Shown here: positions 1-7,187 of the stretch, piece by piece
How the letters are laid out: each line of letters opens with the position of its first letter
Numbering within the stretch: the stretch's first letter is position 1
From: a bacterium
Lineage (GTDB): Bacteria; B130-G9
DNA: 9,465 bases
Assembly: GCA_021160245.1 (NCBI GenBank)
Contig: JAGHCW010000183.1
Location: forward strand, 1 to 9,465
Reading direction: 5' to 3'
Made by a program: the position numbers and the translations under genes
Notes under the pieces: model-generated
Seen by the model: only the letters and a program-made list of their open reading frames with translations
Database searches by the model: none
What the model was told of the DNA's origin: nothing

Positions 1-352
1 GTGACTCATCAGGATAAACAGAGCATAGAACCATATCACACGCGGTCGGGTGTTGACCGACCTGTCGCACCTTCCGTGCTCGAAGGAGGAGGGTAAGGAC
101 GCAAACACTGATACCCTCCGAAGCCCACCGCCTCGCAATGTTCTTCTCCGGTCATGCATGTAAACCGGATCAAGGCGGGCAAAGTAGGACTTTCCCTATT
201 GTCATAATAGAACCTCAAAGTGTCGAGAACGGGACTAGGTTAAATCTCGTTCATAGACAAAGGTGACTGATTGTCTGTCTGTCCGACCACGAACATCCAG
301 CCAAAGAGTCGGTAGGGTGTCCGCCGGTTGAGCGAACACATCCTACGCAAGC

Positions 353-406
353 GGGTGTGATGGTCTTAGACCCGTCAGGATGCGTAATCATTCGACCATC
401 ACACCC
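353..406. repeat. 13-bp perfect inverted repeat
   Basis: GGGTGTGATGGTC at 353-365 is exactly complementary to 394-406, with a 28-base loop. TACGCA (344-349) and TGCGTA (381-386) form a further short complementary pair that would interleave with this stem. The first could be an RNA helix or a protein-binding palindrome. Confidence 0.75.
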
Positions 407-410
407 TGAT

Positions 411-500
411 AGTAGGGTCTTCTGGCAAGACCCTCTTGAAAGTTGAGACCCTACTCACGATTTCTCGGAAGAAATCCCTCGGTCTCAACTTCCGCTTTTT
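411..500 (+). promoter_or_regulatory. Switch-like set of mutually exclusive hairpins
   Basis: Three helices compete for the same bases. AGTAGGGTCT (411-420) can pair with 446-455 (10 bp). Alternatively AGGGTCTT (414-421) pairs with 427-434 in a tight 8-bp hairpin with a 5-base loop, leaving 441-450 free to pair with 481-490 (10 bp). That last helix encloses a further 6-bp hairpin (459-464/471-476) and is followed by TTTTT at 496-500. The layout resembles an antiterminator/terminator pair, although the T run begins five bases after the stem. The pairings are read directly; the regulatory role is inferred. Confidence 0.45.
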
Positions 501-501
501 C

Positions 502-776
502 AACAACACGAACGCATCGTTACCACTCGTTTGGCGTCCCCTCAACCCGCGAGGGGGTCTTTAGTGTGAGAGTTCATAACGTGTCTTCAGAAATCGGGAC
601 ATCAAATGATTGTCGTCGAATCGCGTGTCGTGCTTGACATAAGGTCATCGACGACAATCAGGTCGCGATTTCTGCAAACCCGTTCTTCTCTCTCACACAG
701 CCGCGAGCGCAAACGCGAGGCGTTTCCTAAGCGGTGACAGGACGCCAAACGCATGGTCAACACAAGGCGTGTTGTT
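502..776 (+). promoter_or_regulatory. Long nested imperfect palindrome; candidate structured RNA or ssDNA promoter
   Basis: Complementary blocks are nested in strict order: 502-509/769-776 (8 bp), 522-525/754-757 (4), 528-539/740-751 (12), 564-572/690-698 (9), 588-596/666-674 (9) and 607-619/648-660 (13). That is 55 exact pairs in one fold with internal loops. A small side hairpin (538-543/551-556) sits in the left arm. A perfect -35 hexamer, TTGACA, lies in the apical loop at 634-639, but I see no -10 box at normal spacing. The element sits just upstream of the first gene of the ArdC cluster. It may be a large structured RNA or leader, or a fold-back ssDNA promoter. Confidence 0.55.
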
Positions 777-787
777 TGAGCGTTTTT
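747..787 (+). terminator. Terminator-like hairpin upstream of the ArdC cluster
   Basis: AAACGC (747-752) pairs with 780-785 and CAACAC (758-763) with 769-774 around the loop AAGGC. Three G-U pairs (754-756 with 776-778) bridge most of the gap between the two helices. TTTTT (783-787) overlaps the base of the stem. The stem is not very GC-rich, so termination may be weak or conditional. Its 5' strand is also needed by the 528-539/740-751 helix of the long palindrome, and 769-776 by its outermost helix. The two folds therefore exclude each other. Confidence 0.4.
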
Positions 788-814
788 ATCACCCAAACCA
801 GGAGGAACTACTTT

Positions 815-1087
815 ATGCGAATTGAGTTACTGGAACCCGACAGTCTCTCTTGCGTAATCGTCAAGGCCGAAGATGGTCGCGAGCTCTTCATTCAGACCGA
901 CTTTGACTTCGCAGGAATCGCCTCAACATTCGGATGGCCCGGCTGCAAATGTGGCTCGAAGGGAACGGATGGCACTATCGACTGCCCCGACTGTGGAAGG
1001 CCAGCCCATGTCCTAATCACCGACGCCATCCACTGGATCGATCGCAATTGGGGCCTCGAAGTCGAAGACCCCGGATACTTCTCATAA
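815..1087 (+). CDS. Small Cys-rich (zinc-ribbon-like) protein
   Basis: The product is 90 residues. The ATG at 815 is chosen because AGGAGG (800-805) lies 9 bases upstream; an earlier in-frame start at 734 would run through the terminator-like hairpin. I do not recognise a family. Four cysteines, C44-x-C46 and C57-P-D-C60, are spaced like a compact zinc ribbon or knuckle. The rest is acidic with mixed hydrophobics, and there is no signal peptide or membrane segment. It is the first gene of a same-strand cluster with the ArdC-like gene, 61 bases upstream of it. The context suggests a small accessory or DNA-binding protein of the mobile element, but the function is unknown. Confidence 0.7.
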   Translation: MRIELLEPDSLSCVIVKAEDGRELFIQTDFDFAGIASTFGWPGCKCGSKGTDGTIDCPDCGRPAHVLITDAIHWIDRNWGLEVEDPGYFS

Positions 1088-1100
1088 ACCAGACCCACAC

Positions 1101-1121
1101 GGGGTCGGCTCGTCCGGCCCC
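1101..1121 (+). repeat. Intercistronic G/C-rich hairpin
   Basis: GGGGTCGG (1101-1108) pairs with CCGGCCCC (1114-1121), 8 bp with one G-U and loop CTCGT. No T run follows. It lies 12 bases upstream of the AAGGAG box (1134-1139) of the ArdC-like gene. It may be an mRNA stability or processing element, or a translation modulator. Confidence 0.5.
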
Positions 1122-1148
1122 ATCAACCCTCGAAAGGAGAACTACCCC

Positions 1149-1937
1149 ATGAACCCGAAAGTCATATCAGCCGTGAATCAGATCGTGGAGCTTCTTCAGT
1201 CAGACGACATCGGCGCGAAGATAGCGATCGCAACATATCCACCCTACGACGTCCCTTGCAGCAAATGGAGCCTACCGAATCAGCTACTTTGCCTAATAGC
1301 AGGGACTTACGACGCGAGAGGCTTCAGGCAATGGAAAGCCGCTGGTCGCTTTGTGAAGAAAGGCTCGCACGCATTCAGAATACTTATCCCGCGAATCGTC
1401 AAGACAGTTGACATGGAGTCACGTGAAGAACACCTATCACTGGCAGGATTCTTGACGGCGCCAGTATTCGCAGCATCGGACACCGACGGAGCCGATCTAC
1501 CAGACTACGAGCCACCCGAATTGCCCAAGCATCGCCTCATGGATGTCGCAGCCCGTTTCAACGTGAGCATTGACAGCATCCCGTATCAGAATCACATCAT
1601 GGGCCACTACAGCGAAGGGATGTTTGGAAAACGAATCCGACTGGCTAGTCCAGACGAAATTGTCTTCTGGCATGAGCTAGCCCACGCCGCACACCACAGA
1701 ATAGCACCAAGCGATTATGCAAGTCGCACAACGAATCAGCGCGAGCTAATAGCCGATCTTACAGCGGCCAGCATCGGCGCACTATTCGGCGAAAAGCTGA
1801 CAACTGCACGGAAGCTCAAGGACCATCTAAACAATCACAGCAAGAACCCCGGCAAGGAGGCGCTCTGCCTCATCAAGATCGTTGGTGTCCTCATGCACGG
1901 GATAATCAACAACACATCTGAAGTCGCCGCTGCTTGA
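1149..1937 (+). CDS. ArdC-like antirestriction protein (ssDNA-binding domain plus zincin metallopeptidase-like domain)
   Basis: The product is 262 residues, with AAGGAG 9 bases before the ATG. The N-terminal part (about residues 5-85) has the ArdC N-terminal signature: W40, N44, an aromatic/Gly stretch near Y54, R-Q-W at 60-62 and a V-K-K-G turn at 69-72, leading to a beta strand. The C-terminal part has a zincin motif, H175-E-L-A-H179, with a downstream third-ligand candidate E199 in R-E-L-I-A-D. ArdC proteins of broad-host-range plasmids bind single-stranded DNA and protect incoming DNA from restriction; how far the metallopeptidase fold contributes varies. The family usually runs about 290-320 residues, so this one is slightly short. 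It is the middle gene of a three-gene cluster. The family call is firm, but the activity in this element is inferred. Confidence 0.87.
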   Translation: MNPKVISAVNQIVELLQSDDIGAKIAIATYPPYDVPCSKWSLPNQLLCLIAGTYDARGFRQWKAAGRFVKKGSHAFRILIPRIVKTVDMESREEHLSLAGFLTAPVFAASDTDGADLPDYEPPELPKHRLMDVAARFNVSIDSIPYQNHIMGHYSEGMFGKRIRLASPDEIVFWHELAHAAHHRIAPSDYASRTTNQRELIADLTAASIGALFGEKLTTARKLKDHLNNHSKNPGKEALCLIKIVGVLMHGIINNTSEVAAA

Positions 1938-1952
1938 ACCAGGAGAATAACA

Positions 1953-1980
1953 AAGGGCCGGGGCAAGTGTCCCGGTCCTT
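1953..1980 (+). repeat. Intercistronic hairpin
   Basis: AAGGGCCGGG (1953-1962) pairs with 1971-1980, 10 bp with one G-U and an 8-base loop. AAGGAG of the next gene (1984-1989) starts three bases after it. Like the hairpin before the ArdC-like gene, it has no T run and sits just upstream of a ribosome binding site. Confidence 0.5.
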
Positions 1981-1996
1981 CAGAAGGAGAGCAATA

Positions 1997-2206
1997 ATGG
2001 CCCGTCAGCTGATCCTCAAACCTTCACCCCCTCCTGAGCCAGCAGCCACCCCTGCCAAGCTCCTCTCATGCCAAGATACCCCAAAGCGCAAGTGCTTCGG
2101 GATGCCCAGTATGCGAGCCAGAAAATGCTCTGTATGCAGAAACTTCGATCTCTGCTATTACGAATTCCTGCAAACCAGAAAACAGGGCACGATCAAACTA
2201 ATATGA
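1997..2206 (+). CDS. Small Cys-rich protein downstream of the ArdC-like gene
   Basis: The product is 69 residues. The ATG at 1997 is chosen because AAGGAG (1984-1989) is 7 bases upstream; the in-frame stretch beginning at 1934 overlaps the previous stop and runs through the hairpin. The N-terminal third is proline-rich (around residues 9-19). The C-terminal half is basic with a cysteine cluster, C44-S-V-C47 and C53, plus C25 and C33. This could bind a metal, but I recognise no family. It is the last gene of the cluster. I see no clear intrinsic terminator after it, only a short CCAG/CTGG hairpin near 2212-2222. Confidence 0.55.
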   Translation: MARQLILKPSPPPEPAATPAKLLSCQDTPKRKCFGMPSMRARKCSVCRNFDLCYYEFLQTRKQGTIKLI

Positions 2207-2941
2207 GACGGCCAGATTCTGGACCAGTACCTCAAGACCTCGCTATCCACTAGTATCGACATGCCCGCATACCCACATCTTGAATATCGGCACGACCATG
2301 CCTCTACATTTCGTATATCCGCACCCACACAGATTGACAACCACAACATATCGTGTAACCTCGACGAGTCGCGGCGAGAGCGTCCGTCGAGGCTGGCAGT
2401 AGAGTAATGGTAAACTGCTCCGTGACATCGTGACTGCTCGTTTGCCGCAATTCGCTAGCTCGTCAGCCGACGATCCTCTCACATGACCAAATCCATTCGA
2501 GATATCTGGAATTATTCCCTGCATCCCAGAAGACAATCCTATCGACTCGTTCCTGCTACTCTTAGCACCGTCGAGTATTTCTTGTGTCCCTGACTCTGAT
2601 CCTGAGTCGTCTTTCTTTCCAAGTCGTTACGAGTGAGGTGCCTTTCGTGCTTAAATCCGATTTAACGCCCCAAAGAAGCACTCATGATTGTTGAAGCTAC
2701 CTCCGTCTCCTTCGCAAGAGGAAGCAGCTTGCAGGGAACCAGGCCATGGGTCTAGCAGAGGTCCCAGGCATTCTATAATATACCCTCCTGTAATAGGCGT
2801 GACACTTTAGCGTGTCACCATGCTCTGCAAGCATCCTTACCGGCGGTAGGACATGATTCAGATGGTGTGTCTAAACGTGACACTTTAGCGTATGCACCCC
2901 CTTAAATAGCACGTATGACAACGGTCAGACATGCAGCCGTC
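2207..2941. other. Intergenic region between convergent genes
   Basis: No open frame here looks like a gene; translations on either strand are compositionally odd and lack ribosome binding sites. Visible structures are a hairpin at 2359-2365/2386-2392 (7 bp), GACTC/GAGTC at 2592-2596/2604-2608 followed by a pyrimidine-rich tract, a tight AT-rich hairpin TTAAAT/ATTTAA at 2651-2656/2660-2665 enclosed by GTGCTT/AAGCAC (2647-2652 or 2676-2681, sharing two bases), and a TATAAT at 2774-2779 without a matching -35. The convergent gene ends and the repeat near 2800-2890 fit decayed insertion DNA. Confidence 0.5.
2798..2891. repeat. 16-bp direct repeat around small palindromes; possible insertion-sequence end
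   Basis: CGTGACACTTTAGCGT occurs exactly at 2798-2813 and 2876-2891. The first copy extends into GTGACA...TGTCAC (2799-2818), an inverted repeat. Between the copies lie ATGCT/AGCAT (2820-2824/2830-2834) and a near-palindrome at 2834-2851. Repeated terminal-type motifs of this kind occur at the ends of IS21-family elements. No transposase is present, so the IS reading is a guess. A recombination or protein-binding site is also possible. Confidence 0.45.
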
Positions 2942-4775: not shown

Positions 4776-5918
4776 ATGGAAACTGAGACCGCAAAATCTC
4801 TCTTGTCGAGGCTGTACGGCCGCGAAAGCGACCGATCGGACTTGTCCGTTACGGTGCATGACAGGAGATTATGGGAAGAGGCGAGACTGCAAGGGCAGGA
4901 AGTGTTGAAGAAGTGCGGTCCGCCGGCCGGCTGGCGGGCCTTCTGGAGCAAGTTGAGATTGGACGGGGTGGGCGTTCACGGTGAAACACGCCATGGATTT
5001 ATTACAGTGCTCAACGAGGAGGCTTCGATCCTACATAGGGCTGTGGTGCCCTGCAGATTGACGTTTCGGGAGTTGTGCGATCGGGTTCTTGGGTGGTTCA
5101 AGAGCGTGAAGACCCTTGCCTTGTATGAGCAGGACCGTGACTCGGCCGCCGATCTTTGCGAGACGTTCGGGGATAGACTGGCAGCGGACATTTCGCGGCA
5201 GGACCTTGACGGGTACTTACCAGCTCGAAGGGAGAAGGTGGGCTGGGCTTCGGTCTATCGTGAGATCAGTTTTTGCCGTCTTGTCTTTGATGTGGCAATC
5301 GCCTGGAAGTTGCTCGAGCATAATCCCGCGCCCATTGTTTGCGAGAATCCGAGGCACCACTTGGTGAAAACGCCTGATGAGCATACTTCGTGGTGCAAGA
5401 ATTATGACGTCATGATGTTCAATGTCCTCGAGATAAATGAAGTTGTCCGTGGCCTTCACAGATTCCAGGAGCCGAGTGGGGACATTTCGCGAGAACCGGA
5501 ATTAGAGCAGTTCGACCAATCGTATCTTTTTGACGAGGTCTTGCGAAAAATCGTCAAGCGATCTGTCGTGCCACTCTTGAGGCATCGATTGGGGACGTCC
5601 AAGCCCGATCGCAAGGTCTGGGAAGAGGCAGTTGAGGAAGCTTTTGCGTCGGAAGAAGTAAGAGGACAGCTTTCTCGTTGGACGAGTAGGAAGCAGCACA
5701 AGGAGGACCGAGAGAGGTTTCTTATGGCTTTGGAGGATGCAGGAGCCCCGTTACGGGAACGGCTGGCCGTCAAGCGCGGTAACCGACTACACGATTTGGA
5801 CTATCGCTATGGGTTACGTGGTAAGCTATGCATGTCAAGGCGTCTAGGGAAAAAGGGTCGGGAGGCAATGCGCCGCGCGGCGAAGCGCGTTTTGAGTATT
5901 AGGAGAAGCAATGGCTGA
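4776..5918 (+). CDS. Integrase-like core-binding-domain protein without a catalytic domain
   Basis: The product is 380 residues from the ATG at 4776; a TTG at 4752 would add eight. Residues about 96-190 resemble the SAM-like core-binding domain of tyrosine recombinases: T-F-R-E-L at the start, F-G-D near 131-133, an I-S-R-Q-D-L step, a helix with Y-R-E-I-S-F-C-R-L-V-F, then A-W-K-L-L-E-H-N-P-A-P at the usual domain end. After this one expects the catalytic domain, but I find no Arg...His-x-x-Arg...Tyr set. About 190 charged residues follow, ending in a strongly basic tail. The first 95 residues are unassigned. The gene overlaps the integrase by 8 bp, with AGGAG inside its end, so the two are probably translationally coupled. 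It may be a recombination accessory factor or regulator, or a decayed recombinase with a replaced C-terminus. Confidence 0.6.
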   Translation: METETAKSLLSRLYGRESDRSDLSVTVHDRRLWEEARLQGQEVLKKCGPPAGWRAFWSKLRLDGVGVHGETRHGFITVLNEEASILHRAVVPCRLTFRELCDRVLGWFKSVKTLALYEQDRDSAADLCETFGDRLAADISRQDLDGYLPARREKVGWASVYREISFCRLVFDVAIAWKLLEHNPAPIVCENPRHHLVKTPDEHTSWCKNYDVMMFNVLEINEVVRGLHRFQEPSGDISREPELEQFDQSYLFDEVLRKIVKRSVVPLLRHRLGTSKPDRKVWEEAVEEAFASEEVRGQLSRWTSRKQHKEDRERFLMALEDAGAPLRERLAVKRGNRLHDLDYRYGLRGKLCMSRRLGKKGREAMRRAAKRVLSIRRSNG

Positions 5919-6600
5919 GAAGGGCGGCGAGGCGAAGACGCGGGGTCTTTATCGGCGAGAGGGGAGCGATTTCTGGTGGATGGCTTATGGGACTGGGTCT
6001 GGCAAAGTGGTTCGAAGATCATGCGGGACGAAGAGCAAGCGGAAGGCTTTGCAGTACCTGTCGAAGATACGGGGTCAGATTGCGGAGAACCGGTATCTCG
6101 ACGTAAAGCGAGAGCCTCGGAGCACGCTCGGGGAGATCGTCAACTGGTATCTCTCGCGACCGAACTGTGGCGTTAGGGACAAGTTCAGTTGCAGGCCCAT
6201 CGTGAGCTATTTCGGAGCTGATAGACGATTCAGCGATATAGACGCGAAGTCGCTGATGGACTATCAGAAGTTCCGTCTGAAACAGACTCGTCGGCAAGGT
6301 GATAGGCTCGTCTGCGAGAGGACGGTCAATCGAGAGCTGTCGTTCATTTCCGCAATGGCCAATCGTGCGATCAAGGGTGGGCTGGCTGTCAGGAACCCGG
6401 CACGGGGTATCGAGAAGTTCGCCGAGCGACGACGTACTCAGTATTGCGCGCCTCGGAGATTGAGGCGCTTTTGGCTGCGTGTCGTGAGGGGCCGGGGTAT
6501 TTGTATGGTTTGGTGTTCGTGGCGCTTACTGCGGGCATTCGCAAGTCGGCGTTGCTTAGTCTCAAATGGCCGGACTTGGATTTCGGGCGCCGCCAGTTGA
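5911..6600 (+). CDS. int: Tyrosine integrase, N-terminal part (frameshifted gene)
   Basis: AGGAG (5901-5905) lies 5 bases before the ATG. Residues about 11-58 look like the arm-type DNA-binding domain (G-L-Y-R-R, F-W-W-M-A-Y, basic K-S-K-R-K). Residues about 72-165 are the SAM-like core-binding domain, ending in V-R-N-P-A-R. Integrase-like sequence stops at R-R-R-T-Q-Y (residues 173-178). The remaining 51 residues are out-of-frame Arg/Trp/Cys-rich translation of the catalytic domain. The true continuation is in the frame that resumes at 6444, so one base has been lost (or must be re-read) at about 6442-6446. I see no slippery heptamer there, which favours an indel or sequence error over programmed frameshifting. 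Confidence 0.8.
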   Translation: MAEKGGEAKTRGLYRREGSDFWWMAYGTGSGKVVRRSCGTKSKRKALQYLSKIRGQIAENRYLDVKREPRSTLGEIVNWYLSRPNCGVRDKFSCRPIVSYFGADRRFSDIDAKSLMDYQKFRLKQTRRQGDRLVCERTVNRELSFISAMANRAIKGGLAVRNPARGIEKFAERRRTQYCAPRRLRRFWLRVVRGRGICMVWCSWRLLRAFASRRCLVSNGRTWISGAAS

Positions 6601-7031
6601 CCGTTCGCAAGACGAAAGGGGGGTGTGAGCGTCGTGTGGTTTTGGCAGAGCAAACCGTGGAGGTCCTGAAGGGCATGTCCAGACGTTCGGAGTATGTGTT
6701 TACGTCGAGGACTGGAGGACGGCTCAAGGACATTCGGACGCCGTTCAAGAATGCCTGCAAGAGGGCAAAGATCGAGGGGATGGTATTTCACACCCTTCGA
6801 CATTGCTTCGCGTCGATGCTGGCTGAGCAAGGCGTGGACGCGATCAGCATCATGAATTGTCTTGGGCACAAGGGGATTTCGATGTCTTTGATCTATACGC
6901 ATTTGTCGGATGGGCGCCTCAGACAGGCGGTGAATCTACTACCGGAACTTCGGGGGGAACGTCCCGCGTCTGAGTCTGAGGAAGAGGGTGGGCGTGTTGG
7001 GAAAAGTTCACATTTGGTGCACATAGGCTGA
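6444..7031 (+). CDS. int: Tyrosine integrase, catalytic domain (frameshifted gene)
   Basis: Numbered from the TTG at 6444, the 195 residues hold a complete tyrosine recombinase catalytic set: R33 in T-A-G-I-R, K58 in the beta-hairpin T-V-R-K-T-K-G, H116-T-L-R119, H142 in C-L-G-H-K and nucleophile Y151 in Y-T-H. Nothing essential is missing. The TTG has no ribosome binding site, so it is probably not an independent start. Joining L-R-A-S-E-I-E directly to the Q-Y of the upstream frame rebuilds a normal integrase of about 370 residues. The gene ends about 60 bases before the tRNA-derived attachment site, as expected for a site-specific integrase of a tRNA-targeting element. Confidence 0.85.
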   Translation: MRASEIEALLAACREGPGYLYGLVFVALTAGIRKSALLSLKWPDLDFGRRQLTVRKTKGGCERRVVLAEQTVEVLKGMSRRSEYVFTSRTGGRLKDIRTPFKNACKRAKIEGMVFHTLRHCFASMLAEQGVDAISIMNCLGHKGISMSLIYTHLSDGRLRQAVNLLPELRGERPASESEEEGGRVGKSSHLVHIG

Positions 7032-7088: not shown

Positions 7089-7137
7089 CTTAGGATCCAG
7101 TGGTTTTACCATGGGGGTTCGAGTCCCCCCTCTCGCA
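7089..7137 (+). other. Attachment site: 3' half of tRNA-Leu(UAG)
   Basis: Read 5' to 3': anticodon loop CTTAGGA (7089-7095, anticodon TAG), anticodon 3' stem TCCAG (7096-7100), long variable arm TGGT...ACCA (7101-7111), T arm GGGGG-TTCGAGT-CCCCC (7113-7129), acceptor 3' strand CTCTCGC (7130-7136) and discriminator A (7137). CCA is not encoded. The bases upstream do not supply a matching anticodon 5' stem, D arm or acceptor strand, so this is not a working tRNA. A block running from the anticodon loop to the 3' end is a classic att core for tyrosine integrases. The restored tRNA should lie to the left, on the same strand. Confidence 0.8.
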
Positions 7138-7187
7138 TTTTAGCCGCCTTCCAGTGCTGGACGACAACCGAACAGCTCCAGCGCATC

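Follow-up and report, generated by a model that had tools for sequence, protein, structure and literature searches.

The window examined here, a 9,465-nt stretch of DNA at the start of contig C134 (JAGHCW010000183.1) in the 3.43-Mb bacterial genome GCA_021160245.1, carries an extensive fold-back structure ahead of genes for a small Cys-rich protein and an ArdC-like antirestriction protein. This raises the question of whether the structure is a leader that controls these genes or a structured element in its own right and, in the latter case, which strand carries it and in what form. On the plus strand, positions 502-787 fold at -124.7 kcal/mol (z -7.80), with none of 200 dinucleotide shuffles as good. 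The nested complementary blocks described in the initial annotation are present as inverted repeats at 502-510/768-776 (9 bp), 522-544/735-757 (within which fall the claimed 4- and 12-bp blocks), 564-600/662-698 (holding the two claimed 9-bp blocks) and 607-619/648-660 (13 bp, 100% complementary). The fold and the gene positions bear out the view that a selected structure lies directly ahead of the small-Cys-protein/ArdC cluster. We also agree that it belongs to no known RNA class, since a search of the window with the Rfam 15 models, including GOLLD, ROOL, OLE and other large RNAs, returned no relevant match to E 5, and the same was true to E 1 for six loci with other copies. A protein-coding role is not suggested either, because the gaps between copies are of 1-2 nt, which speaks against coding as the explanation of the conservation.

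The fold proposed at 502-787 is real, although not as a complete unit: it is one 286-nt domain of an element of ~1.3 kb, and was dropped as the unit once other copies revealed the larger block. Structure fills the window from position 1 to ~790 and continues past the left contig end, the consensus running from near 9880 of contig C59 to near 790 of the window (about 1.28 kb), whilst sliding windows over the coding region downstream of ~790 gave no consensus structure. Sliding windows set the limits of the element and the copies its leftward extension, so that the full length is pieced together from partial copies on several contigs and from few sequences; about 60% of it (~787 to 1 on the minus strand) lies in the window. 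The best-folding 200-nt windows were 301-500 and 501-700. The outer stem of the right-hand domain (502-510/768-776 and 522-544/735-757) encloses a junction with a hairpin (~701-734), the long arm and a further hairpin (~541-560).

Table 1. Coordinates of the structured element, its parts and the neighbouring genes (window positions unless a contig is named).
Feature	Position	Strand	Basis and remarks
Window part of the structured element	1..787	-	Consensus folding z -6.3 (1-371) and -11.7 (374-800); candidate ncRNA, read right to left
Left extension beyond the window, homologous sequence	C59 (L038) ~9880-10370		Copies
Hairpin 353-365/394-406, 13 bp	353..406	-	Sequence, fold
Hairpin 440-450/481-491, 11 bp, 100% complementary	440..491	-	Inverted repeats
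Right-hand domain	502..776	-	Inverted repeats, fold, two-copy minus-strand consensus
Long arm of right-hand domain, capped by the 13-bp stem 607-619/648-660	564..698	-	Inverted repeats; covariance model R2
Terminator-like hairpin of the initial annotation, rejected as a terminator	747..787	+	Weak, T-run inside stem
90-aa Cys-rich protein gene (CxC...CPDC)	815..1087	+	Without Pfam match
ArdC-like antirestriction protein gene, HELAHAAH metalloprotease motif	1149..1937	+	Pfam, PHROG, alignment with ArdC-like proteins
Small Zn-finger-like protein gene (CxxCxxFDLC)	1997..2206	+	Alignment A2, genome search
Tyrosine integrase of the mobile element	5911..7031	+	Pfam Phage_integrase, 1e-31
Attachment repeat, 55 bp	7089..7143	+	Identical to 3' part of intact tRNA-Leu(TAG) gene on C170

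Within the source genome, window positions 374-2210 have a second copy at the start of contig C228 (locus L005), 96% identical in the noncoding part. Contigs C59 and C170 each end in the left part of the element: window 1-371 is 88% identical to the C59 end (10371-10742), C170 and C59 are 86% identical over 1,062 columns, and window 1-67 is identical to C170, after which C170 diverges. In the sister-genus genome G001, contigs C145 (L016 1-960) and C171 (L027) carry relatives, and so do C176 and C89 at their ends; L016 1-105 matches C59 10221-10326 at 74%. Both assemblies have contig breaks inside the element, the pattern that a repeat would give. A covariance model of the left part (R1) matched 2 of 386 genomes, the source genome and its sister, in a collection that holds only four genomes of this phylum. 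The model of the window's arm (R2) did not find the sister-genus right half, and we therefore do not claim that the right halves of the two genera are homologous; the minus-strand layout there is nonetheless the same, the long outer stem being followed by one hairpin, the long arm and then another hairpin. Comparison of the element with phages and plasmids by blastn gave no match, DNA pattern searches of viral contigs gave none or chance matches in unrelated sequence, and the ArdC loci of viral contigs and Alicyclobacillus plasmids lack a large structured block upstream, where z -3 was exceeded in isolated windows only. Two pattern matches among genome contigs were rejected, one (L056) as a chance match in a coding gene and the other (L057 2250-2294; model R1 E 5e-6) as a hairpin, similar to two palindromes left of the window (described below), in which a Hyphomicrobiales contig ends.

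Consensus folding of four alignment blocks on the minus strand beat column shuffles in every case (z -5.1, -6.3, -11.7 and -9.4) and exceeded that on the plus strand in each (-1.1, -0.7, -6.6 and -4.6, with the same controls). For window 1-815 as a single sequence, the fold was -304.8 on the plus strand versus -344.9 on the minus strand. The energy gap between strands exceeded that of shuffled sequence for window 1-800 (-38 versus -18 ± 6.6), C59 (-19.5 versus -2.5 ± 4.7), C170 (-72.7 versus -47 ± 6.5) and C171 (-43.4 versus -14.4 ± 6.3), and inside about 1-2 sd of shuffles in the remaining segments. G.U pairs made up 9-17% on the minus strand versus 2-8% on the plus strand, in nine of nine segments. 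Five substitutions between the window and its L005 copy fall at positions that are paired in the folds of both strands, and every one of them gives G.U on the minus strand and A.C on the plus strand; when such changes were counted on strand-neutral folds they again leaned to the minus strand, to an extent dependent on the reference copy. One block, formed by the near-identical ends of C176 and C89, is an exception with a slightly better fold on the plus strand, and the composition of unpaired bases, A-rich on the plus strand, did not clearly favour either strand. Overall, there is good support for placing the structure on the minus strand.

Covariation was seen on the same strand. The two sister-genus copies C145 and C171 share 106 minus-strand pairs of which none is broken, six are changed on both sides and 14 are kept through G.U, with conserved G.U pairs occurring within a long stem. 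In the left part (C59, C170 and C145), which is homologous in the sister genus and shows compensatory changes, 93% of cells are paired and eight pairs differ at both positions, a count reached in 0 of 500 shuffles; sliding the partners abolishes the signal. RNAalifold chose both of these structures on the same, small sets of sequences, and column shuffles are the fairer test; by these the energies are clearly outstanding, kept variable pairs rise clearly above shuffles only for the window with L005 and for C145 with C171, and double changes are never much above shuffles. Minus-strand double changes occur in other copies but not in 502-787, where the only comparison is the nearly identical L005 copy and where conservation and tolerance of G.U provide the support. 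Taken over these few sequences, the minus strand carries a conserved, covarying structure of the kind that marks large structured ncRNAs.

The element recurs in two bacterial genera that are related to each other, in both at the core of mobile DNA. It adjoins, and is divergent from, the cluster of small Cys, ArdC and Zn-finger genes, the last of which is kept beside it in both genera. Assignment of the ArdC-like protein draws on PHROG (anti-restriction protein, 1e-6) and on a Pfam ArdcN match of E 9e-4, below the family cut-off. In the sister genus, L016 1862-2174 and 11652-11843 hold decayed ArdC pieces, and the structured element and Zn-finger gene persist there. A relative of the small Cys protein (47% identity) is encoded on a 459-kb viral contig (L045 4956-5273), with several strongly folding stretches nearby. 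Further along the window the tyrosine integrase is split over two frames that overlap (5911-6600 and 6444-7031), as a frameshift would produce, and the 55-bp repeat lies downstream of it. Because window 1-67 is identical to C170 and the repeat matches the tRNA-Leu(TAG) gene there, the window probably makes up the right-hand end of an element of ~26 kb whose left 18.6 kb would lie on C170. This contig encodes an Hma-type helicase, a methylase, an ATPase, a DUF1016 nuclease and other defence genes; its defence island (L037, L066) comprises the Hma-like helicase, a DUF1156 methylase, a DUF499 ATPase, the DUF1016 nuclease, an AAA ATPase and a PRTase-CE protein. A second element, located beside tRNA-Leu(TAA), is probably formed by C59 joined to C228; it carries genes for an integrase and for type I restriction-modification as well as a primase-like gene, and HsdR, HsdM and HsdS follow the second cluster copy (L005 2142-7946).

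We infer that the element is transcribed as RNA, and our preferred reading, held with moderate confidence, is that ~787 to 1 on the minus strand of the window is part of a structured ncRNA gene of ~1.3 kb, the core of a family of mobile elements that are integrated at tRNA-Leu and carry defence genes. A folded single-stranded DNA on the minus (template) strand is the main rival, since a fold located here on that strand is compatible with this reading as well; the DNA would serve as a promoter of the Frpo/ssi type or as a single-strand origin of replication, and in the promoter version expression of the Cys, ArdC and Zn-finger genes would begin immediately on entry of the strand into a new cell. 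Frpo promoters precede anti-defence genes in plasmid leading regions, where regulatory regions of 50-350 bp were searched, and the element is like them in being a large template-strand fold directly ahead of antirestriction genes (PMC11541004), here of an ArdC cluster whose first start codon lies ~40 nt beyond the end of the fold. The minus-strand preference also persists with DNA energy parameters (z -6.0, -5.2, -11.0 and -8.2 in the four blocks), and RNA and DNA parameters do not separate RNA from single-stranded DNA. However, no sigma-70-like plus-strand promoter was found in window 1-1000, in a phylum for which sigma-70 may not be the consensus, nor a recognisable -35/-10 in the stem, and no relaxase was seen among the scanned proteins, in elements that are split over contigs and might be mobilised in trans. 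The element is, moreover, several times longer than the regions searched for Frpo (PMC11541004), and the conserved G.U pairs of the long stem suit RNA better than DNA. Priors, G.U content and length make RNA the more likely form, and we regard the single-stranded DNA reading as unlikely.

More doubtful still is a double-stranded site with many inverted repeats, at which the mobile element might, for example, start its replication or recombine. Two conserved palindromes left of the window (L038 10225-10253 and ~10300-10325) do have ATAA-N4..7-TTAT cores resembling tyrosine-recombinase (Xer-like) sites, and the C59 copy sits after the primase-like gene, yet such a site predicts no strand asymmetry where the minus bias is consistent, and long nested arms with G.U-type variation are atypical of protein sites. 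The least probable reading is that of the initial annotation, a plus-strand attenuator or riboswitch controlling the Cys/ArdC operon: the sequence lies directly ahead of the operon and its right half also folds strongly on the plus strand (z -6.6), but the conserved fold belongs to the minus strand, the plus strand is consistently weaker with a left half near zero (z -1.1 and -0.7), substitutions create A.C mismatches on it, and the supposed competing terminator at 747-787 is unconvincing, being a weak hairpin (-12.8 kcal/mol, z -2.4) that the terminator scan omits and whose T-run is mostly paired within the stem and shorter by one T in the second copy, so that no competing intrinsic terminator was found there on the transcript strand.

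If the element is indeed a large ncRNA, transcription would start near the base of the outer stem (~776), where inspection of the sequence gave only a weak promoter-like TGA-TAAAAA at 790-783 and none that was convincing, and the product would fold into a multi-domain particle. To the right of ~808, moreover, the copies show no sequence conservation. No clear terminator was found at the far end. An AT-rich stretch left of the structured block (L038 9605-9705), near-identical in the C59 and C170 copies, is possibly a promoter or terminator region. As a guess, the RNA may act in trans for the mobile element, in its maintenance or in interference with competing elements, and the small Cys and Zn-finger proteins might act with it.

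To our knowledge only a handful of very large structured bacterial RNAs exist outside the ribosome, most of them without known function. GOLLD, ROOL and OLE are, on the best reading, the closest kind, to which the element is comparable but not homologous: as a putative RNA it would share with them a very large multi-domain structure, and like GOLLD and ROOL, large RNAs of unknown function carried in phages and prophages (PMC12286853), it is found on mobile elements. It is longer, at ~1.3 kb versus ~0.66 kb for one ROOL (PMC12286853) and over 0.8 kb for GOLLD, and unlike all three is tied to the ArdC/Zn-finger cluster of tRNA-integrated defence elements. Abundant ncRNAs are also made by the phage satellite family Vibrio PLE, and phage ICP1 has noncoding transcripts of ~0.8 kb (PMC7567579); the candidate RNA resembles these by description, as noncoding transcripts of integrative elements and phages, and differs in its hosts and gene neighbours. 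We tentatively suggest, as a possibility that goes beyond our preferred reading, an undescribed RNA class of ~1.3 kb, longer than GOLLD, that would assemble into a particle, of RNA alone or together with the small Cys and Zn-finger proteins, and would be the conserved core of tRNA-integrated defence islands.

Should the structure instead prove to be single-stranded DNA, its size would be exceptional for a fold resembling a promoter or origin, and the known range of that mechanism would grow to include a phylum about which little is known. If the RNA reading is true, an RNA of ~1.3 kb tied to integrative elements that carry defence and ArdC-like genes would constitute a new class, and its fixed gene neighbours would offer a direct route to testing its role.
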